A stretch of DNA of 64,000 bases from NCBI GenBank assembly GCA_006384855.1, contig VCJN01002617.1:1-64000 (forward strand). The letters run 5' to 3'. Of the stretch, positions 9,437-22,769 are shown piece after piece. Made by a program: the position numbers and the translations under genes. The DNA comes from Tetraselmis striata. Taxonomy: Eukaryota > Chlorophyta > Chlorodendrophyceae > Chlorodendrales > Chlorodendraceae. Every line of letters starts with the position of its first letter. Position 1 is the first letter of the stretch. The notes under the pieces were generated by a model, which had not been told where the DNA came from, searched no databases, and saw nothing but the letters and a program-made list of their open reading frames with translations.

Positions 9437-9441
9437 GGACC

Positions 9442-9769
9442 TGACAAAGGGATGGCTCAGGAACTGGAAGCAGAGAAGGAAGGAATGATTACAGTTCCGG
9501 AATTCCGGGCTATATATATGTATGATCGTGCGGGCTGAACGGTCACCTCGGTCAGCCTCGCACGCACTCTTGATGGATACGGGTAGTTAACCGGTATCTC
9601 TAGGGTCTCTAAGTGAAACTACTAGAACTGCTAAGCGTTGCCCTTGTATAAGGGAGGGGAACCGCCGGGTCGCCGAACGGTCACCTGACATGGTGCGTGA
9701 CGATGGTGATTTAACTGTCGGGTGTAGGGTTTGACAAAGCAGGGCTAGCCAGGGTCTGACTAGCCAACA
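9442..9769 (-). repeat. 3' LTR of copia element
   Basis: 328 bases, the partner of 16,684-17,008. Its outer end borders one copy of the GGACC target duplication. Confidence 0.95.
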
Positions 9770-9781
9770 CCCCCCCACAAA
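9770..9781 (-). other. Polypurine tract
   Basis: The minus strand reads TTTGTGGGGGGG immediately before the 3' LTR start TGTTGG, as expected for the plus-strand primer. Confidence 0.75.
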
Positions 9782-9842
9782 CCAAACACCAGTGGAAGGG
9801 GCTTGATGGTGGAGAACACACGGGGTGAAAACGAAATAGCGT

Positions 9843-12624
9843 CTAGGGGAGTTGGGGACGGGCACGGTGGTCACGCATGAAGCGGGCCCGCAACTGGGAG
9901 AATCTTGGGTTTGGAATAGCCTTGGTGAACATATCGGCAAGATTGTCTGCAGACTGGACATACTCCACGTGAATGGCTCCAGACGCGACCAATTCACGAA
10001 CGTAGTGATATCGGATGTCGACATGTCGCAACTTCCGGCCCACAGAAAGTTGACGCAGGTTGCAAAGTGAGCCTTCATTGTCGGACTGGAGAGTGACGGG
10101 ATGGTTCTTCAGGGCAGTCGGTCCAAGAACCTCGCACAAAAACTGGCGAGAGAACATAATGACGCGTCCAGCTTCAGACGCGGAGACATATTCTGCTTCG
10201 CATGAAGAGAGAGCGGTGGTGACTTGCTTGTGGGAGCCCCAACAGAAAGCGGACCCAGAGAGACAACCGACATGGCCGGATGTGGAGCGTCGGTCGTCGG
10301 CATCCCCTGCCCAGTCGGAGTCAACTGCGAACAATGGGACGAAGGACTGGGCTGTGGTCTGGGTATAGTGTAGGCCAAGGGTAGCGGAACCGGCGAGGTA
10401 GCGAAGCACGCCCTTAGCTGCCAGCAAATGCTGGTCTGTGGGTTTGTGAGTGTAAGAACAAAGCTTGGTGACTATCGCAGTGATGTCCGGGCGGGTACAA
10501 ACAGAGAGCCACAGAAGGCTGCCCACCAGTTGCTTGTATAGAGACACTTGATCGGTTGGTAGGAGAGTGCATGCAGTGGCTGGGAGACGGGTGTCCACGC
10601 GACACGGTAGGCTCTGCGGGTTGCAGTCTGTCATGCCGAAGGTGGCAAGGACATCGTGAATGTATTTAGTTTGATGAAGGATAACGGACCCGTCATCGTC
10701 GTCCCAGTCGAGGCCCATCCCCATGAGCCAGGTGCAAAGGCCAGCGTCGGTGCAGTCGAACTCGGCCAGCAAACGAGTCTTGAATGCCGGGTACCACGCG
10801 GGATCCGCGGCCTCGAGGATGATGATGTCATCAACGTAGATTGCAACAGCTGCGAAGTCCCCGTCGGTGCCAACGAGTTGTACATACACACACCCATCCG
10901 ATGTGCACTGTCGAAAGTTATTGCGCTTGAGATAGTTGTCGAGCTCTGTGAACCAAAGGCCGGGTGACTGGCGGAGGCCGTAGAGAGCGCGGAGGAGTCG
11001 ACCCACCATAGGTTCGCCACTCTCAGAAAATTCCTCCATGCCGCGGGGAAGTTTTATGTAAATTTCCTCAGTGACCTTGGCATTGAGAAACGCAGTGGTG
11101 ACGTCCATGTTGTAGATGCGACGACGAAGGTAAACAGCCAGGGCGAGCAGTATGCGGATGGAGACAAAAGAGACCACGGGCGCATACAGCTTGGTGCTGT
11201 CAAAGTCGATGCCGGGGCGTTGGTGGTTGCCCAAAACTACGAAACGACCCTTGCGCTTGTCAACATACCCATTCTTTAAGAATTTAGTCCGAAAGGCATA
11301 CCGGGTGCCGAGCGCCTTATGCCCAGCAGGGAGTGGACACACTTTCCACGTCTGTTTAGCGAGAAGGGCAGTATTTTCTGCCGCAAGGGCAGCCTGCCAC
11401 TCCGCCGCGTAGGGGGAGCGCATGGCTTCGTCATAAGTGAGCGGGTCAGGAGGTAGATCTCCACCAGGGGAATGGCGAGGTGCTGAGGCTGCAAGGCAAA
11501 AGCCGGAGGTAGGAGCTGGAGAAAGGGGGTGAAATTCCCGGCCCGCGGTGTAAGGTCGAGGTATCGCGCACGCCAAGAGGGCGGTTGGCACACCGGCGTC
11601 GCACGGGATGTCGTGCTGAGAGAGGGTGGAGGGAAGCGAAACTGAGTCCACGACTGCAGCCGGGGCAGCCGGGCATGAGGACTTGGTGGTCCCATAGTAG
11701 ACGTAGGAATCATCGGTGGTGCTGGAGCGGATACGAGTGCTGCGACGCAGTGGCGGGGAAGACGGTAGTGGTGGCAGCTGGCGGACGTCCACGGCAGCGT
11801 TGTCGGCGCCGTCGCTAGAGGAAGAATCAGCCACAGCGTGGGGGCTGACGTTGGACGGGGTAGTGGGAGGCAGGGAAGAACCACGTTGCAGGGGCGACGT
11901 GGGGGTCTCCGCAGAGAGGAGAGGTGACGAAGGTGAGGCCAGTGAGGAGGGCAACTGGGGAAGAACCGGCTGCGGTGCGGGGGTATGGTCGTCGTTGTCC
12001 ACGGAGCGGGGAGGCGGAGAGGCAGGCGATAGTGGAGAGTCCACAGATGGGTGTATGATGCCGGTGGAAATGTATGTGGGGGTTTGCGCATGGTCATCGT
12101 CGTCATCAACAGAGAGCGCTGGCGACTGAGGGTATAGCGTCGCCGCCTCACTTGGTGACTCCAACAAGGGCTCGCTGGAAAAGGACTGGGAACCGAATGG
12201 AAAGGTGTGGCCCTGCCTCCAGCTCTCGCAGAACACCGCACTGCGTGTTACCGAGATCGCGCCGGTGGTTGGGTTATACACCTGCCAGCCAGGAGAATTA
12301 GGCGACTGACCGACGTATATGCCCTTCCATGCCGCCACGTCCGCCTTTCGGCGAAGCGTACGGTCGAGGTGCACGTAGGCCGGGCAGCCGAGCGAAGACC
12401 CGCAGGCCGGAGAGGTCTACCTCTTGACCAGCAGCGAGCAACGGAACATCTCCGGGTCCTGCGCTCCACTTGCGATTAATGATGTAGACTGCATGGTACC
12501 AAGAGAGCTCCCAGAAACTAAGGGGTAGGCCGGCATAGAGCAGTTGGCATTTCGCAATGCAGGCCAGGGTTCGCCAAGGGCGCTCCGCACGCGCGTTTTG
12601 ATGAGGGCTATAGCTGTCGCACGT
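9843..12624 (-). pseudogene. Integrase C-terminus, reverse transcriptase and RNase H of copia element
   Basis: The part after the TAG. From 12,624 the same frame continues with the SPHQN and AERPWRTL integrase block and an LRVF motif; near 12,390-12,393 the frame changes and the typical GCPAYVHL block continues in the frame that stays open to 9843. RT signatures are clear: DVTTAFLNA, LYGLRQSPGLW and catalytic YVDD. RNase H shows DSDWAGD, SSCEAEY and RHVDIRYHYVRE, and ADMFTKA closes the protein. The Ser/Pro-rich linker between integrase and RT is about 250 residues. Apart from the stop and the one frame change the whole region reads as intact. Confidence 0.9.
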
Positions 12625-15057
12625 CTACATATCCACATTAGCGTCTTTGCAGATCTTCTCAAGAGAAGAGCACAGGAACACAACAGCGCGGTCAACGCGG
12701 ATCTGGCGGACAGTGAAGCCCTTGCGGCGTGCAAAAGCCAAGAAGCGATCCACGGCACCTGCGGCCTCGGACTGCGTAACAAGACTGCCCGCCAGGTGAA
12801 CATTCGTGCGCCGGCAGTTGGCGCCAATCATCCAGCGGCGACCGTGAAGCGACGGAGCCATGGGTCCCCATATGTCGAGATTGAGTACGGCGAATGGTTC
12901 ATGCTCGAAACGTGAGCCGACGGTGCGAGGAACTGCAGCAACGGTGGACTTGACGAGTGCGCATACCTCGCAGAATGGCGGGGCACCGGTAACATAGGGG
13001 AGACTGGGCACCAGTTTGGCGGTTCGCAAGATGCCGTCATGATGGGTGTGACCCATCCGCGCATGGAGGGGTGCAGCCTGGGCACGAGAGCGAGCAAAAC
13101 CGCCCGAACGGCCGACAACGGCCGCCGCCACCGGCACGGGAGAGGCGAGTGTGCGAGCACTAGCTTGGGGCGCATCGGCAGAAGGGGTCACGACAGCGTG
13201 CAACGCGTAGAGTCCGACATCGTGCATACGTTCCACATTGACGTCCGCGCCGCATGGGAGCGTCATGGTAGAAGTGCTGGGGCCGAAGTAGAAAGTCGCG
13301 CCGGAGGACTGCGCTGCGCTCTGGCTGAAAAGGAACTCCACTGCGTGCGGAAGAGCGGCGGTGAGAAGGCCGGGAGCGTGGAGTACATTCCGCAAAACGG
13401 AGACGACTGGTTGACCGGCGGTAGATGTGTAAGTAACGTGTAAGGTACCCACACCGTAAACTGTTGCGCGTAGGCCGCCAAGGCGAAACTGGTCCGAGGA
13501 TGCCAGTGTCGTGTAAGTATAGAAACGACGACGCCGCCCAGCGACGTGCCACGATGCGCCGCTGTCCAGGAGGAATAGCTGAGGACTGAGAGGTGCGGTG
13601 TTGGGAAGAACAGCACACGCGGGTAGAGCCGCACAGGGTATAGATGTGCAAAGATAGGCCGCCACGGCCCGGAAGAACCAGACCGCGAGGTTGCGGTCGA
13701 CGCAGCCTCCGAGGGCTGCACACAACTCGTTGTTGGGGATAGATGTGCAGAGCACCGCGTTCCTAGGGAAACCCATGAGGAGAGCGCGCACTAGAGCATC
13801 CGGTTCCTCCATCTTTCCAAAATGCATCAGCATGCCAGCTCCAGGAGATCCGTCCGACTGAGGACGAAAGGCAAAACTCCCTGCCGTTGCGACTAGTTTA
13901 GGGAGGTGATGTTGGTCAGGGCGAATGCATGTCCATTCGGGCGACAGGCCGTGCGATGACAGCACCGACGCCAGTGGCGGAGCCGAGTGACGTTGAGCGG
14001 CGTAGTGGTCCATGAGAGAGCTATAAGGAGCGGCGTTGGTCCACAGGAGTGTACGCCGGGCAGCCGACGAACCGCAGTCCAACGCGTTCACGATGAGAGG
14101 CTCGCCAAGAGAGAGGATAAGCTCCGGACACTTCAGCGCTCCCGGCACATTTTCTATTATGTAAGAAACTGAGGCAGGCTGCGCATCCGCCAGATGCCGT
14201 ACAATGCGAATGACGGCTGCCATGACGCCGCTGCGCATATCCTCCCATCCGTGACCGCAGCCAGCACTAGACCAGGGCTCACAGCAGGGCCCCGCAGCGA
14301 ACAGGGTGACTGGAGGCATGGCTGCAAGCACATCCTCAGTGATTAAGGTCACGTCTTGCGGCATAGAGGAGAACGCCTTCTGAAAGGCGTCCTCGTGGAG
14401 CTGGGTCGGGTACTCGGCAGACAGCATCCGAAGGCGGTCCGCAGCCCAACGTCTCCGCACGGGACTAATTTCGCAAAGTGTCACCCTAGTGACCGCGAAG
14501 CCTGCCGTCAGCATGCCGTCGAGCAGAGAGAGCGTCCTGCCGCAGCACAGCCCGAAGAAGTGATTGATGATGAGAGCATGAGGAAGAGGCACCAGGCCCA
14601 CGGTCTGAAGGGACGGAAGCTCCGGGGCGGAGGCGGGGGGTGCAGCAGCAGCTGTGAAAACCAATGCGGATGGCGCGCACATGTCCATGGTTGCGGTGCA
14701 GCCAGTCGGAGTCGCAGGGCCCGTGACTGGTGAGTGATGGTCAATGGCGGGTCGCTCCAACGGCAGTGATACGCTGTCAAGGGCATGCGTGCAAAGTGAG
14801 GAATGGCCACGTGGCCGGAGTGGACCAGCGGCAGATGGGGCATCAGTGTAGAGAGAGTAGTGACGCCCGCAATTTGTGTGGTCGATGAGGGGTGAGGCCG
14901 ATCCACGTAGGGCACATGTGTCGTGCTGACCGCCGCGCCCAGCCAGACCAACGCCGCCACTCCGCGCGGCCGTGGTGTCGTTGAGGAAACCGCAGTCACC
15001 GCAGTCAGTATATATAGGTGGCGCACTCAGCGCCCTCTCCGCCAGCACGCGTTCCAT
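12625..15057 (-). CDS. C5-DNA methyltransferase, protease and integrase polyprotein
   Basis: An 810-codon frame from ATG 15,057. Residues 1-160 are low-complexity linker. Residues about 160-470 form a C5-cytosine methyltransferase that looks DNMT3-like: LSLLDG at 176-181 (motif I), acidic Glu196 (motif II), GPCCEPWSSAG at 256-266 (motif IV with Cys259 at the catalytic position), ENV at 302-304 (motif VI), SSAARRTLLW at 330-339 (motif VIII), and MGF at 428-430 with a VDRNLAVWFFRAV-type motif X near 453-465. Residues 498-502 are the protease DSGAS. H665, H670, C696 and C699 form the pre-integrase zinc site. The integrase starts at LDIWGP (D728) and RVDRA (D789). A TAG then cuts the integrase; it reads on in the same frame afterwards. 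Confidence 0.92.
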   Translation of the reverse strand: MERVLAERALSAPPIYTDCGDCGFLNDTTAARSGGVGLAGRGGQHDTCALRGSASPLIDHTNCGRHYSLYTDAPSAAGPLRPRGHSSLCTHALDSVSLPLERPAIDHHSPVTGPATPTGCTATMDMCAPSALVFTAAAAPPASAPELPSLQTVGLVPLPHALIINHFFGLCCGRTLSLLDGMLTAGFAVTRVTLCEISPVRRRWAADRLRMLSAEYPTQLHEDAFQKAFSSMPQDVTLITEDVLAAMPPVTLFAAGPCCEPWSSAGCGHGWEDMRSGVMAAVIRIVRHLADAQPASVSYIIENVPGALKCPELILSLGEPLIVNALDCGSSAARRTLLWTNAAPYSSLMDHYAAQRHSAPPLASVLSSHGLSPEWTCIRPDQHHLPKLVATAGSFAFRPQSDGSPGAGMLMHFGKMEEPDALVRALLMGFPRNAVLCTSIPNNELCAALGGCVDRNLAVWFFRAVAAYLCTSIPCAALPACAVLPNTAPLSPQLFLLDSGASWHVAGRRRRFYTYTTLASSDQFRLGGLRATVYGVGTLHVTYTSTAGQPVVSVLRNVLHAPGLLTAALPHAVEFLFSQSAAQSSGATFYFGPSTSTMTLPCGADVNVERMHDVGLYALHAVVTPSADAPQASARTLASPVPVAAAVVGRSGGFARSRAQAAPLHARMGHTHHDGILRTAKLVPSLPYVTGAPPFCEVCALVKSTVAAVPRTVGSRFEHEPFAVLNLDIWGPMAPSLHGRRWMIGANCRRTNVHLAGSLVTQSEAAGAVDRFLAFARRKGFTVRQIRVDRAVVFLCSSLEKICKDANVDM
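13648..14580 (-). other. DNA methyltransferase domain inside the copia polyprotein
   Basis: This is the coding extent of residues 160-470 of the polyprotein. All diagnostic blocks are in one uninterrupted frame and in canonical order (I, II, IV, VI, VIII, X). Spacing from motif VIII to motif X is about 90 residues, giving a short target-recognition region. The position usually written Pro-Cys in motif IV is Cys-Cys here. Expected activity is methylation of cytosine in DNA; substrate context cannot be read from the sequence. Confidence 0.88.
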
Positions 15058-16249
15058 CCATCACGTCGAGCAGCTCATCGAATCCATCACAGCCGGCCGA
15101 GACGGAGTAACTGCGCTGTCCTTGCGGGAGCTCAGTAGGTGTAGTCTCGGCGACGGTGGGGGAGGGCACATTGAATCCGTCGCAGATGGGAAGGGAGAGC
15201 GGAAAAGTGGGGGCGTGAGCCATGCACACGAAACCGTCCCCAGGCAACTCCACGGTGGGGGGGGCGCTGGCGATAGCGCCAGTGGGCCGCCCGCCAGGGA
15301 ACACAGGCGGCTGGGACTTGACAGGGTTCGGGCGTGCTCCCGCTGAAGTGCGAAGGCCGCCGCTGGCAAGCCACGCAGGTTTCTCCGCCGGCGGGGAATC
15401 AAGGAGCCTGGAGCCGTTGACGTGCCGTGTTTGCCAGCAATACGGTGCTGTGTGACGGGAACGACCACAGCGACTGCATTCACGGTCTGGGTAGGACTGG
15501 GTAGGGAGCGACGCCGACATTGCCACTGGTGGTGGGGTGACGGGAGCAGGAGCGCGAGTAATAAGGTCAACGTGCGGTGACAACGACGGGCGCCTGGCGG
15601 CCTCACGAAGAGCCTTGATCATGACCTTGCCGCGAAGCGCTGCGTAGTCGCAGTGGATGCCATCTGCCCGTAGCTCCTCCAAGTCGTCCCGCAGTTTCTC
15701 ATAGCGCTCGTGAATACCGGGAACAAAATATAGATCCATGAAGTCGTCGTCCGTAAGCTCCGCCTCCAGGGTTGTACGCAAGGTACGGCGCGCAGTCTCC
15801 ATGCGATAAAGGTAGGCGCCTAAGTCTTCATGTGCGAGTTGACCACGGCGCAGGCCGTCCAGTACCGTTTTTACGTGCCTATGCTTGTGCTGTTGAAACA
15901 TGTTTAACACCGCTCCCCATGCAGCCGCGCCATGATGGTTGTCGATAGCGAGGACATCGTTGTCAAGAGGGGTACAATAATTGACCTCCGCAGTTGCAAG
16001 AGGATTTTGTTGAACGGCTGCCTCCACGCACTCGAAGAGAAGATTCTGACGCAGGTAGCCACTGCCCCCGGCCAGGGCCTCAGCGAGGCCGTTTCTGGCA
16101 GCCCAAGATGTAAAGGACTTGCGCCATGTGATAAAATCTTCAATGCTTGCCCGGTCCGCAAGTTTAGGAGCGCGCTGTGGCTCGACACGTTGCATGGTGC
16201 TCTCCTCAAGAAGGACAGCGGGGGATGCGCCGGAGGTTGCCGAAGTCAT
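15005..16249 (-). CDS. Gag polyprotein of copia element
   Basis: A complete 414-codon frame starting at ATG 16,249, about 420 bases after the primer site. Residues about 20-230 form the helical copia-type Gag region. A CCHC zinc knuckle follows (CSRCGRSRHTAPYC, spacing C-x2-C-x4-H-x4-C, about residues 264-277). The tail is Pro and Ser rich. The frame ends at 15,005 and overlaps the next frame by 53 bases. The next frame is +1 relative to gag, so either +1 frameshifting or internal initiation is needed to make the downstream products. Gag forms the particle in which reverse transcription takes place. Confidence 0.9.
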   Translation of the reverse strand: MTSATSGASPAVLLEESTMQRVEPQRAPKLADRASIEDFITWRKSFTSWAARNGLAEALAGGSGYLRQNLLFECVEAAVQQNPLATAEVNYCTPLDNDVLAIDNHHGAAAWGAVLNMFQQHKHRHVKTVLDGLRRGQLAHEDLGAYLYRMETARRTLRTTLEAELTDDDFMDLYFVPGIHERYEKLRDDLEELRADGIHCDYAALRGKVMIKALREAARRPSLSPHVDLITRAPAPVTPPPVAMSASLPTQSYPDRECSRCGRSRHTAPYCWQTRHVNGSRLLDSPPAEKPAWLASGGLRTSAGARPNPVKSQPPVFPGGRPTGAIASAPPTVELPGDGFVCMAHAPTFPLSLPICDGFNVPSPTVAETTPTELPQGQRSYSVSAGCDGFDELLDVMDGTRAGGEGAECATYIY

Positions 16250-16671
16250 GTTTATGGGGAAAAGAAAGGGTGGAAAGGTTGAAAGTCGTCCTGCCAGTGG
16301 CAGTGAATGTGATAACAGGAAGAGGTTGGTGGTGATGTTGCAGAATTATATGCTTTTCGCCAAGCTGAGATGATGTCGACCGCAAGCTTGTAGAGGATGA
16401 GCAAGGAGAAAGCCAAAGACGTTGAGGCTGAGGCAGACACGAAGTGGCAGAAAGTAGAGACGACGTCTGAAGACGTTGTCGACACGAGGGTGTTGAAGCA
16501 GATGTCCAAAATATAGGAAAGGGGGAAGGAAAGTCGATCAGTTTTCGAGCTGCTTTTCAGGTCGGCGCGCTTGTTGGCAAGCAGCTGGAGCGGCCGAGGC
16601 AGTGCAAAAGGAAAGGCAAAGGAAGTCGGTGGAGTTCACTCGATGCTGTCGAGGAAGTCTACCAAGTGAGA

Positions 16672-16683
16672 GGGCCCATAACC
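16672..16683 (-). other. Primer binding site, half-tRNA type
   Basis: Directly after the 5' LTR the minus strand reads GGTTATGGGCCC, the complement of the anticodon-loop region of initiator tRNA-Met (GGGCCCATAACC). This is the type of site used by Drosophila copia, where a 5' half of initiator tRNA-Met primes minus-strand synthesis, and differs from the 3'-terminal tRNA site common in plant copia elements. Confidence 0.75.
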
Positions 16684-17008
16684 TGACAAAGGGATGGCTC
16701 AGGAACTGGAAGCAGAGAAGGAAGGAATGATTACAGTTTCGGAATTCCGGGCTATATATATGTATGGTCGTGCGGCTGAACGGTCACACCTCGGTCAGCC
16801 TCGCACGCACTCTTGATGGATACGGGTAGTTAACCGGTATCTCTAGGGTCTCTAAGTGAAACTACTAGAACTGCTAAGCGTTGCCCTTGTATAAGGGAGG
16901 GAAACCGCCGGGTCGCCGAACGGTCACCTGACATGGTGACGATGGTGATTTAACTGTCGGGTGTAGGGTTTGACAAAGCAGGGCTAGCCAGGGTCTGACT
17001 AGCCAACA
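16684..17008 (-). repeat. 5' LTR of copia element
   Basis: 325 bases, beginning TG and ending CA on the minus strand. Aligned to the other LTR it shows three base changes and three indels of 1, 2 and 4 bases. It contains a TATATATA stretch at about 16,754-16,761, a candidate TATA box. Confidence 0.95.
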
Positions 17009-17164
17009 GGACCTATTGATATCGCCCTCTGCTGCTAGCTCATGTAAATATACTAGTACCAGTAGCGGACGAATTTAGTAACGGACCAATTTGGGATCCT
17101 TACAGATACGGGTAGCGGTAGTAAGTACTGTGCTGGGTGCCTGCGTACTGACAGTTGTGCCTTG

Positions 17165-17558: not shown

Positions 17559-19143
17559 GTGTCACGCCAGTCCCCCCCCCCCCCCCCCCCCCCCCACCTC
17601 CCCCCCCAACCCCGCCTTGACACCCGGAGAGTGCTCACTCGAATCTCCGGTCCATTGTGTTGGAACGTGGCACTGGCCTGTAGGGCCTCGCGTTTGAGTG
17701 GCGTGCGGCCGCTGCGGGTGGTGGCGGGGTCGACCGCTAAGCAGGCGCAGTATGGTAACGCGCGCGAGGCGATCGAGAGCTCCACGCCGCTGCTGGAGGC
17801 GGGGCGCGTGGAGGACGCCCTGGCAGGTTACCAGGTGAGGTAGCAGCAGCAGCGCTAGATGCAGCACCTCCGTCAGGACGGTGTGCTAGGTGTGGCCAGT
17901 CGACGGCTGCGCCTCGTCGACCCCCCCCCCCCCCCCCCCCTTCTGCGTTACCAGGTGTCGGCCACGCTTCTGTGCTGACTCCCCGCGCACTGCCTCAGGC
18001 CGCTCTGGAGCTGCGTCCCAACCCAGACGAGGCCCGGGCAGCGCACTACAATAGCGCGTGCTGCCTCACGCGGTTGGGGCGGTTCGAGGAGGCGGCGGAC
18101 TCGGTGATTACCGCCGTGAACGACTACGACCTCAAGTTCATTGTTGCGCTCAAGGTCGGGATGGCTGCCGCATTCCCTCTGCCCCTGCTCTGTTCCCCAA
18201 ACTCACCCATCTCCCCCTGATAGCTTCCTTGCTGGCCTCTTATGTGGGGGTCGCGTGCTATGCGCCCCAGGATGATGACTTGCAGCGGCTGCGGGAGCGG
18301 AAGGAGTTTGAGCGAGTGATCAACAGCGTAGCGGGCCGGGGAGGTATGAACGAGGACCAATACATCAAGATGAGGCAGGAGGCCAAGGTGCGCCGCAGTT
18401 AGGGGGCTGCGCTGATGCTCTACCCGTACAGTGAAACCTCAGCGGCAATACCTCATCGTGTGGCGGCAATTCCTCACCCTCCTCCCCCTCCCAACTATCT
18501 GTAGTCGCCGTTCATGTTTGCGCGCACCATCATCGTCGGAGGCCTCACCGCTGGTGCTGGCCTGGGCTTACTTGTCATTACTGGCCGGCTGGTTGCAGCC
18601 CTGAAAGGTGTGCAGCCCCACATCCGCATTGACTCGATGCCGCCATCGCCTGCATGTTGCGGTCACATGAAAGTCAGAGGGGTGGCGGGGAGCGCCAAGG
18701 AATGTTGAATATGATTGCCGGCGGTGGCAGGTGCACCCGACGCGCCGGACCTGACGGAAACGGTACAAAATTTCGCCATCAATTCCGGTGCACTGGCACT
18801 GCTGGTGTTCCTGCTGCTGCGCGACCGCCAGAAGGCAAACCAGCAGCTCAAGACCATCGAACGAGAGGAGGTGCTCGCCAAGCTAGAGGTATCCCCGACC
18901 CCCTCTCTTGACCCTCACACAACCATTGGTCCCAAACGTTGCCGCTGTGTCCCAAAATCCTTTGCCCAATCGCAAGACATTTCAATCACTTTGCGCTGCT
19001 GACACGGATGTTGTAAGTGCTGTTTATGGGTATACGCCCCGTCAACGATGGATCAGTGCATGGGGTGAGAGAACCAAGGAGCTGCAGCGTACCACATTTT
19101 GATGTTTACTACATAAAAACGCAGTTGTGAATGGGAGGGCGAT

Positions 19144-19185
<42 letters not shown>

Positions 19186-20368
19186 CTGACCTTGTTGGCC
19201 ATCCCCTCCATAGACTGCCCCATCCCCTCCCCCCCCCCCAACACACACACACCCACTCCCCTTGGTTGCCATGTCTACTCTCATTGAGTATAGCCAACAT
19301 TGCGCTGCTCCAGGTCCAGGTCAATGGCAGCCGCACCGTCACCGTGCAGACGCTGCGCGGCATTGCGCGCCCGATCGTGATTGCTGGCACTCGTGGATGG
19401 GTGCAGCGTACACTCAAGTCGGCGGAGCCATACCGCAACGCCATCAAGGACCGCGGCATTGAGCGTGAGCGCGCTCCCTGTCCCCTCCCTCTACAGCACC
19501 CGTTGTCCTCGCTCCTTGTACATCACCCTCCTGACCTCTGTCGGAGCGTCTCTTGGCATGAGTTACCTCAACTCTCCGGACCGTCACTCGATGCTTCACC
19601 TGTAACAGTGACCGACTAGCTGTGCCTGCCATACATGCGCGCTCATGGTCATACTCACATAGCTGAGGTGGTCCGGGTGAGTTGGGTATGCGGCACCGGC
19701 TGGCGCAGCTGACTGCAGCATCTGCCTGCGGCGTGTGCGGCGGCGCAGTCATCCCTGTGGTGCTGAACGGCGGAGAGGACCCAGACGACCGCATCCGGGC
19801 GCTCAAGGCAGAGCTGGCGGCAGAGTCCAAAGAGTGCGTACGCCGGCCAGCAGCTCAGAGCCCCATATCGCTCTTGGCGGAATTGGCGGCACCAGCACCC
19901 CAATTCTGACCCGATCTGAAGGCGGCTGAAGTTGCTGCCTGTCCTGACTCTGAGCAGGGCCAAGGGCTTCAGCAAGGCTGCACGGAACGCCCCCGCAGCT
20001 CCGGATGGTGGTGGCAAATATGAGGTGACTGTGGGCAAGAAGAAGATCGAGGCGGTGAACACGCAGGATTGGGAGGTGAGTGACTGTGTGGGTGGTGAGG
20101 AGTATGTTGCTGCTTCAAGGCCGGGGGGGGGGGGGGGGGGGGGGGGGTGGGTTTGCTCCATTGCGGCACAACTCACTTACGTGCACTGGTGCAGAACTGG
20201 CTGAATGCCATCTGCAAGGAGGCAGGCCTCAGCGCGATGAGCAATGTCTACGTACAGGTGCAGCTGGATGGCAGCGTGCGTGCCAGCGGCGCGGGGTCCC
20301 CGCCCTGGGACAAGCTCATGGCCGACATCCCCACCATGGACAGCATCCGCTCCAAGTTGATGCAGTGA
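17559..20368 (+). CDS. LPA1: LPA1-like photosystem II assembly protein, multi-exon
   Basis: Matches LOW PSII ACCUMULATION 1, a thylakoid TPR protein that helps insert and assemble the D1 subunit of photosystem II. Exons: about 17,670-17,834, 17,999-18,154, 18,271-18,387, 18,505-18,607, 18,731-18,888, 19,314-19,464, 19,749-19,837, about 19,965-20,075 and 20,195-20,368. Exons 1-3 carry the TPR region (PNPDEARAAHYNSACCLTRL, then NDYDLKFIVALK). Exons 4 and 5 each give one membrane segment (GLLVITGRLVAAL; ALALLVFLLL), and exons 6-9 the conserved C-terminal domain ending PTMDSIRSKLMQ. The joins at 17,834/17,999 through 19,464/19,749 keep frame with GT-AG borders. The transit peptide and start codon were not located; 17,559 is only the open limit of the first exon. 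The junction 19,837/19,965 is tentative. Confidence 0.85.
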
Positions 20369-21807: not shown

Positions 21808-22769
21808 ATGGCAGCAACGCTCTCCGCCGGCGCCACGGTGCTGCCCCGCCCGCTCCTGGTGACGGCAAGCTGCTGCCGCAGCGCGACCCGTGCCCTCCAG
21901 ATGGTTTCCGCTGGCCCCAATGACGCCTTTGCGCCACCTCTGCAGGCAAGTCCCCCCCCCCCCCCCCCCCCCCCCCGGGCGCTTCCTCTACACCGCACTC
22001 CCCCGGGGAAGATGCTCGCTCCCTCACAGCCACTCGCCCACCCGCGACAGTTTCAGGCCAGTGAAAGCCCCTGCTCGCTATCCACACCCCTACCCATCCT
22101 CTTACCCCTTTTAAACTCCACTTGGCGACAACAGGATGCCTCGGCATGTTGCCGCCTCCGCCTCCAGCAGTGACGGCCGCGGCGAGGCGGCGACTCAGCG
22201 CGGACGGCCGGCGCTTCCTGGTCGGCCCGCGCCGCTGGCCACTGCCGCGGGCACCTCCGCTGCGTGGCTGCACAGCGCGCTGCCCGCGCTGGCGGAAGAG
22301 GCGGGCGACGGCGGCGACATCATTATCACGGTCGCCTTTTCCGTCGCCATCTTCGCGCTGGCGGTCGTCACGCTAGGGGTGGGCGCCCCTCCCCGACGGG
22401 GCGGATACCTTGATGGCTGTGTGGGGGGGGGGAGCGGTGGACAGCTGCGACCTGTCTGGCGGCACCCCAGGGGGGTTGGCCGCAATGATAGATGCTTTAC
22501 CAATCCATGGCAGGCTGAGCATGGGGGCACGGCTGCTGCAGGTGGGCTACCTGTCCTTCATGCAGTGGAACGACGGGCGGCAGGAGAAGAAGGACTTGGA
22601 GGAGGCGGGGCGCGCCAAGGTGAGCAGCCCATCCAACGCCGCGGCCGCCAAAAAGGCCAAGGCCAAGAAGGAGTCGGACCGCGTGCGCAAGCGCGACAAG
22701 GCGCGCGCCACGAAGGGCAAGGGATTCAGCAAGCGGGTGCGGGCGGAGTTCAGTGACGACGACGAGTAG
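21808..22769 (+). CDS. Small plastid-type single-pass membrane protein
   Basis: Two well-supported exons: about 22,136-22,378 and 22,542-22,769, joined in phase 0. They encode a basic Ser/Ala/Arg-rich leader, one membrane helix (IIITVAFSVAIFALAVVTLG), then YLSFMQWNDGRQEKKDLEEA and a Lys/Ala-rich tail ending FSDDDE. An upstream exon at 21,808-21,945 would add a typical transit peptide (MAATLSAGATVLPRPLL) and end with CAG|GCAAGT, a GC-type donor before a poly-C tract. Its phase does not fit the next exon, however: from 21,808 the join would run into a stop. An in-frame ATG at 21,920 would fit instead. Leader composition suggests plastid targeting. The family is conserved-looking but not one I can name. 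Confidence 0.6.

Follow-up and report, generated by a model that had tools for sequence, protein, structure and literature searches.

The 64,000-nucleotide stretch of Tetraselmis striata contig VCJN01002617.1 (assembly GCA_006384855.1) analysed here, which we call the window, carries on its minus strand a 7.6-kb copia retrotransposon (9442-17008) comprising a pair of long terminal repeats (LTRs), gag, a cytosine-5 methyltransferase (C5-MTase, or MTase) domain, protease, integrase, and reverse transcriptase (RT)/RNase H (Table 1). A sequence-only reading of the region had proposed that matched LTRs and a target duplication bound the element, and that ordered C5-MTase motifs lie in one frame between gag and protease; both descriptions hold, the strand being minus. 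The LTRs are identical at 320 of 330 aligned columns (97%), with three substitutions and seven gap columns between them, and GGACC flanks the element on both sides. An integrase placed ahead of an RVT_2-type RT, LTRs with TG...CA ends, a 5-bp target-site duplication, a primer-binding site, and a polypurine tract assign the element to Ty1/copia (Pseudoviridae).

The open frame at 12625-15060 matched PF00145 above the curated cut-off (E 4.8e-7; 29.9 bits against 22), so the segment is not placed outside the C5 family. Because this single Pfam match spans just the motif IV-VI block (residues 224-309), the remainder of the domain was tested separately. Motifs I, II, IV, VI, VIII, and X in the customary numbering, the set that was scored, occur in order from 14562 to 13675. 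Against a C5-MTase profile built from 82 phage, plasmid, and viral-contig enzymes, up to five of them originally found through similarity to the window domain, the 346-amino-acid (aa) domain scored 32.4 bits; only 39 of 200 shuffled sequences obtained a score, none above -2.7. A global hhalign comparison returned a probability of 97.5% over 291 columns and reached motif IX/X, with about half of the columns confidently placed (sum of probabilities 133.7). When six domains representing five families of such elements (described below) were aligned, the catalytic Cys, the ENV of motif VI, and the motif-VIII Arg were invariant, and PF00145 matched all six at E <= 0.1. Judged by these sequence comparisons, the segment between gag and protease is a genuine C5-MTase family domain, and it is probably an active DNA methyltransferase.

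Table 1. Features of the copia element in the window (coordinates on the forward strand of the window).
Feature	Position	Strand	Basis or remark
Target-site duplication GGACC, low side	9437..9441		flank comparison
3' LTR	9442..9769	-	aligned with 5' LTR
Polypurine tract GGGGGGG	9770..9776	-	precedes 3' LTR
Copia reverse transcriptase RVT_2	10602..11354	-	E 5.3e-51
YVDD of RT	10827-10838	-	sequence
SH3-like domain, downstream of integrase	12222..12371	-	Pfam
Open frame: MTase, protease region, gag_pre-integrase	12625-15060	-	open reading frame (ORF) and Pfam
gag_pre-integrase domain	12946..13089	-	E 0.0042, below cut-off
Aspartic protease region, LLDSGAS	13366..13575	-	Pol_BBD E 2.3e-8
C5-methyltransferase domain, 346 aa as delimited here	13633..14670	-	PF00145, motifs, genome search
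Motif X LGGCVDRNLAVWF	13675..13713	-	sequence
Motif VIII SSAARRTLLWTN	14035..14070	-	sequence
Motif VI YIIENVPGA	14137..14163	-	sequence
Motif IV AAGPCCEPWSSAG	14260..14298	-	catalytic Cys codon 14281-14283 by alignment
Motif I HFFGLCCGRTLSLLDG	14515..14562	-	R in window copy, G in other copies
gag ORF, 414 aa	15005..16249	-	upstream of MTase frame
CCHC knuckle in gag	15437-15478	-	zf-CCHC_5 E 0.029, under cut-off in window copy
Primer-binding site GGTTATGGGCCC	16672..16683	-	directly inside 5' LTR
5' LTR	16684..17008	-	TG...CA ends; aligned with 3' LTR
Target-site duplication GGACC, high side	17009..17013		flank comparison

We searched the window's own assembly (224,097,584 bases in 2,903 contigs) with the MTase domain as query. 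Because scoring was limited to the best candidates (117 of 510 first-look candidates, some rows being pieces of one copy), all genome counts are lower bounds. At least 120 rows were reported. They include at least 18 full-domain copies at 94% identity or more, counting the window copy (one lacks the first residue), 16 of which have no stop within the domain, and two further copies at 83-84% identity; the remaining rows are fragments and distant families at 32-41% identity, most of which span nearly the whole domain. The domain is thus not confined to the window copy. Counting by eye in the tabulated results, we find 25 of the 120 rows within frames that run for 2,000 aa or more without a stop.

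One representative was chosen from each of five groups drawn by identity, and each encodes a single-frame polyprotein: L124 (2,152 aa; the window's family, A), L125 (2,130 aa), L126 (2,299 aa), L127 (2,147 aa), and L128 (2,483 aa). All five have the order gag - MTase - protease - integrase - RT in one frame, with the MTase inserted at an identical point. PF00145 scored 27-45.8 bits in four of them and 18.5 in L127 (E 0.0015, below cut-off; 22.1 for the domain alone). The gag_pre-integrs, SH3, and RVT_2 domains were found in every polyprotein (gag_pre-integrs below cut-off in three), Pol_BBD in all except L125, and the integrase core rve in all except L124; rve and SH3 lie ahead of RVT_2. Pfam detected the CCHC knuckle in three, while the CCHC pattern itself is present in the gag of all five. 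The primer-binding site of the window element, which we take to match the anticodon arm of initiator tRNA-Met, is near-identical in L124 and L127 and similar in L125. LTR identity is 100% in L127, 99.8% in L125, and 98.8% in L124, the three measurable pairs (the LTRs of L126 and L128 lie beyond the fetched sequence), and the same three elements are flanked by 5-bp target-site duplications (L124 CGGAG, L125 GTTTC, L127 GACGG; read by eye). Given the single frames, the LTR identities, and the duplications, recent MTase-bearing elements with one open frame exist in this genome. Between families, the MTase domains are 30-50% identical and the RTs 34-72%.

Within its family the window copy has decayed, showing frame changes, a stop, and an altered motif-I glycine. 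Taking L124 as reference, the gag, pol, and 3' end of the window copy lie in different frames, and its integrase, which contains a stop, is interrupted between 12625 and 12416. Because L124 reads gag and pol in one frame, the offset between them in the window copy reflects decay and not a frameshift signal, and we rejected the idea of a ribosomal +1 frameshift. Elsewhere in the window, long C or G runs (17570-17609, 19151-19190, and 21933-21986) are possible weak spots of the assembly.

Selection was assessed by comparing non-synonymous with synonymous change (pN/pS) across 18 family-A copies, excluding a duplicate of the L124 locus, the two copies at 83-84% identity, and fragments; some of the 18 span only part of gag or integrase. 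Pooled pN/pS was 0.348 in the MTase (0.334-0.364 when copies were left out one at a time), 0.489 in gag, and 0.233 in protease-integrase. The two wrong frames gave 0.94-1.79 overall, and 1.06 and 1.47 for the MTase. The MTase domain is under purifying selection, and we regard the anatomy and constraint of these MTase-bearing copia elements as almost certain.

In two word-based searches of protein sequences, the window domain matched eight and two entries (one of the latter new), all labelled Tetstr1, which we read as Tetraselmis striata; the eight were 73-98% identical over the matched parts, and neither search returned a close non-retrotransposon enzyme. Querying proteins with the L127 MTase region brought in three further Tetstr1 entries as well as P0013, a gag-MTase-copia polyprotein of 2,514 aa that has PF00145 and copia domains and is encoded on an ENA contig of 74,018 bases. 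The P0013 MTase, whose motif IV reads PDC and not PPC, is at most 51% identical to the genome's domains across their full length (54% for partial pieces), and P0013 therefore belongs either to another organism or to an element missing from the assembly. This relative suggests a wider lineage of MTase-bearing copia elements. Searching phages yielded three records, of which one is annotated as a DNA methyltransferase and two carry no annotation (E 0.008 to 0.6); searching plasmids yielded nine (E 3e-3 to 0.8), eight of them annotated cytosine methyltransferases. Viral contigs gave no match when scanned with the single domain and no relative when scanned with the RTs of the elements, and a genome-contig scan with P0013 likewise found no relative. 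Scanning viral contigs with the retro-MTase alignment recovered 20 contigs carrying short phage enzymes, nearly all with ENVPGAP...RRHRLFE. These enzymes (L148-L167) occupy frames of 188-456 aa and have PPCQ-like and ENVPGAP motifs, mostly with RRHRLFE. Five of them were placed in the MTase tree, far from the retrotransposon domains.

The assembly holds other C5-MTases as well. A separate multi-copy enzyme in a 325-aa open frame (G000, L086-L091; also L093, L129, L133, and L134) matches PF00145 at E 3e-42 to 6e-40 in six places and sits next to a 330/377-aa ORF, itself repeated, and to repetitive sequence rich in GC; these loci are a second repeated element with a methyltransferase. A 630-aa open frame (L130, G000:C2009) encodes a bacterial-looking C5-MTase, and its contig is possibly bacterial. 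Also abundant is a copia family whose frame is 1,561 aa long, one member of which (L135, G000:C2439:79500-86000) has LTRs that are 100% identical. L135, the one member of this family examined, lacks the MTase (retro-MTase profile -2.3 bits), and its sequence following the 5' LTR is different; it offers a natural control.

In the MTase trees, 11 retrotransposon MTases form one clade (99 by the Shimodaira-Hasegawa-like approximate likelihood-ratio test, 60 rows), and six of them do so at 100/99 (50 rows). Within this clade, families A and B separate from C, F, G, and P0013, and the RT tree has the same main split; a single capture of the MTase is therefore favoured. Two results fit instead with several captures, or exchanges, among copia families. 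In the midpoint-rooted RT tree, the MTase-less 1,561-aa family falls between A+B and C/F/G/P0013, which allows for either a loss or a second gain, and P0013 groups with G in the RT tree (98/95) but is excluded from G, C, and F by the MTase tree (98/68). Loss in the 1,561-aa family explains the RT tree equally well, however, and the insertion point shared by all five polyproteins, like the single clade and the matching split, argues against repeated capture, which we consider rather doubtful.

We have good confidence in the overall interpretation that the window element is a decayed copy of an autonomous Ty1/copia (Pseudoviridae) lineage that acquired a C5-MTase early and retained it, the enzyme perhaps acting on the element's own complementary DNA (cDNA). 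Such a lineage would have kept the MTase as a regular part of a single polyprotein (gag - MTase - protease - integrase - RT - RNase H). Made together with Gag-Pol, the MTase would enter the virus-like particle and, either released from the polyprotein or acting within it, would methylate double-stranded cDNA before or at integration. A new copy would then arrive premarked and might be hidden as host-like DNA, shielded from nucleases or deaminases, or tolerable to the host. The sequence-only reading had likewise suggested that methylation could hide new insertions as heterochromatin or steer integration. Long interspersed nuclear elements (LINEs) are not known to pass through a cDNA stage ahead of insertion. 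We infer the cDNA role from the anatomy of the element, and it appears the simplest one because the MTase sits in the Gag-Pol of the particle in which cDNA forms; as the main role of the enzyme, it is the likeliest candidate, though a serious possibility rather than a probability. More tentative still is the full scenario, in which the MTase has been a core gene since before the families diverged to about 30% identity, serves to deliver pre-methylated cDNA, and was acquired independently in chlorophytes. If true, each insertion by such a retroelement would come with a heritable epigenetic mark of the element's own making. The system is a rich one, with several families, near-identical copies, and an MTase-less copia family in the same nucleus; because natural insertions with and without the domain share that nucleus, the benefit of a DNA methyltransferase (DNMT) to a retroelement is directly testable.

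Self-methylation could also serve restraint, the element marking itself so that the host silences it and its cost is reduced, which is one option put forward by de Mendoza et al. in 2018 (PMC5890265). Many near-identical copies suggest successful spread, and all three measured LTR pairs of complete elements are 98.8-100% identical; both points make restraint an unlikely reading of the Tetraselmis elements.

The substrate and class of the enzyme were approached through trees and profiles in which each eukaryotic class was represented by one enzyme and DNMT5 and DNMT6 by none, a thin sample. The sequence-only reading had called the domain DNMT3-like, a label that must be taken as tentative. In the best tree (50 rows), the retrotransposon clade joins DNMT3A at 100/94, with a long-branch warning, and its placement with DNMT2, DNMT1, or HhaI is not rejected (approximately unbiased test, p-AU 0.277, 0.090, and 0.097). 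In the profile comparison DNMT3A ranked sixth of 86 globally but 51st of 86 locally. Its pairwise score of 38 compares with 31.2 +- 4.4 for shuffled sequences, 37 of 500 of which scored as high, whereas the ten best phage and plasmid enzymes, some of them first found through this domain, scored 76-95, above all 100 shuffles each. A profile search of the PDB placed HaeIII first (9.8e-9), followed by a DNMT2-type tRNA methyltransferase (1.3e-7) and DNMT3A (3.4e-6). The DNMT3 affinity is thus tentative, being suggested by the tree and not by pairwise or local similarity; we therefore label the domain a divergent C5-MTase with possible DNMT3 affinity. The same results bear on whether the domain modifies RNA and not DNA, its target being the element's genomic RNA or primer tRNA, as DNMT2 acts on tRNA-Asp. 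Copia elements package RNA and a tRNA primer, the clade with DNMT2 survives the tree test, and the second-best PDB match is of DNMT2 type; against this, the best tree pairs the domain with DNMT3A and the top PDB match is a DNA methylase. We judge an RNA substrate distinctly unlikely.

Several observations weigh against the main interpretation. A very abundant copia family of the same genome does without any MTase. The element is not CpG-depleted (observed/expected CpG 0.97, against 0.86 in the remainder of the window), and singleton transitions in the family-A copies, with only a slight excess at CpG (50/744, against 99/1710 at other C/G sites), leave no clear CpG-deamination footprint; between them, these two measures neither demonstrate nor exclude methylation. 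An AlphaFold model from a 22-row alignment (mean predicted local distance difference test score 58.3) is confident solely in the MTase core: block means range from 70 to 91 across residues 101-220, and most of the remaining residues score low. In motif I, the site of the SAM-loop glycines, the 17 other same-family copies compared contain GG and the window copy GR. In family A the motif IV reads GPCCEPWS, GPCC replacing PPCQ; the second Cys aligns with the catalytic Cys of the other families, so that the usual Pro has become Cys. In one copy (L106) the motif is GPCS, by which, in the family alignment, it would lack the catalytic Cys.

These substitutions, together with the atypical motif I FGLCCGG and the PDC of P0013, could mean that the domain is catalytically dead and has been kept for binding nucleic acid or for a structural role in the particle. 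The invariant catalytic Cys, ENV, and motif-VIII Arg speak for catalysis, as do the PF00145 matches to all six aligned domains; the other four families have PPC at motif IV, and in four of the six domains the residue after PPC is Q or A (PCC stands in both family-A rows). A dead enzyme is accordingly improbable in our view. That the domain is a chance frame or an assembly artefact, an idea to which the shortness of each single Pfam match (about 70-85 residues) might lend itself, is already refuted by the 120 or more rows, the five polyproteins, P0013 outside this genome, and selection confined to one frame.

The sequence-only reading had pointed to retrotransposons with captured DNMTs described in 2018 and suggested that a chlorophyte copia element may be a further, independent capture. 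The precedents are real, and their superfamilies can now be specified: the charophyte carrier is an LTR Gypsy element and the dinoflagellate carriers are DIRS and LINE elements, Symbiodinium copia elements being without any DNMT domain (PMC5890265). A 2019 opinion article mentions Gypsy and DIRS elements encoding adenine or cytosine methylases in green algae among others; the type of methylase in green algae is unspecified there, and copia is unnamed in the text available (PMC6338049). One sentence of a 2025 paper puts DNMT3 in "LTR Copia and DIRS families" of streptophytes and dinoflagellates, citing the 2018 paper; since the latter reports Gypsy, "Copia" may be a slip, and the section containing that sentence describes no chlorophyte family, structure, or selection (PMC12344493). 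In the parts available, four further papers report no DNMT-bearing chlorophyte copia element (PMC9998398, PMC12542154, PMC12477816, and PMC12633428), and none appeared among the titles and abstracts listed by our search, which left most subscription journals and all supplements outside its reach.

The closest known system is KnitGypsy-Dnmt3 of Klebsormidium nitens, also an LTR element, whose Pol ORF contains a Dnmt3-type domain that has no introns and is under purifying selection, its ratio of non-synonymous to synonymous substitution rates (Ka/Ks) being below 0.2 (PMC5890265). That element is a Ty3/Gypsy of a charophyte with a DIRS-like repeat layout, whereas the Tetraselmis element is a Ty1/copia of a chlorophyte with ordinary LTRs; further, the Tetraselmis MTase precedes the protease, several families have radiated, and constraint is weaker (pooled pN/pS 0.35). 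SymbioDIRS-Dnmt3 resembles the Tetraselmis elements in its DNMT within Pol, its congruent RT and DNMT trees, and its many copies, and is a precedent for activity, its DNMT having been shown to methylate CG de novo; it differs in being a DIRS of dinoflagellates (PMC5890265). The idea of own-cDNA methylation was likewise proposed in that paper. SymbioLINE-Dnmt, termed an orphan DNMT (PMC12344493), shares an encoded DNMT and differs in being a LINE (PMC5890265). The Tetraselmis elements thus have the traits of DNMT-bearing retrotransposons, the MTase being in frame with the polyprotein, multi-copy, and under purifying selection; by their domains they are copia elements, outside the published superfamilies (DIRS, LINE, and Gypsy), and they would mark the gain of a cytosine methyltransferase in a retrotransposon superfamily for which the literature covered holds no detailed prior documentation.

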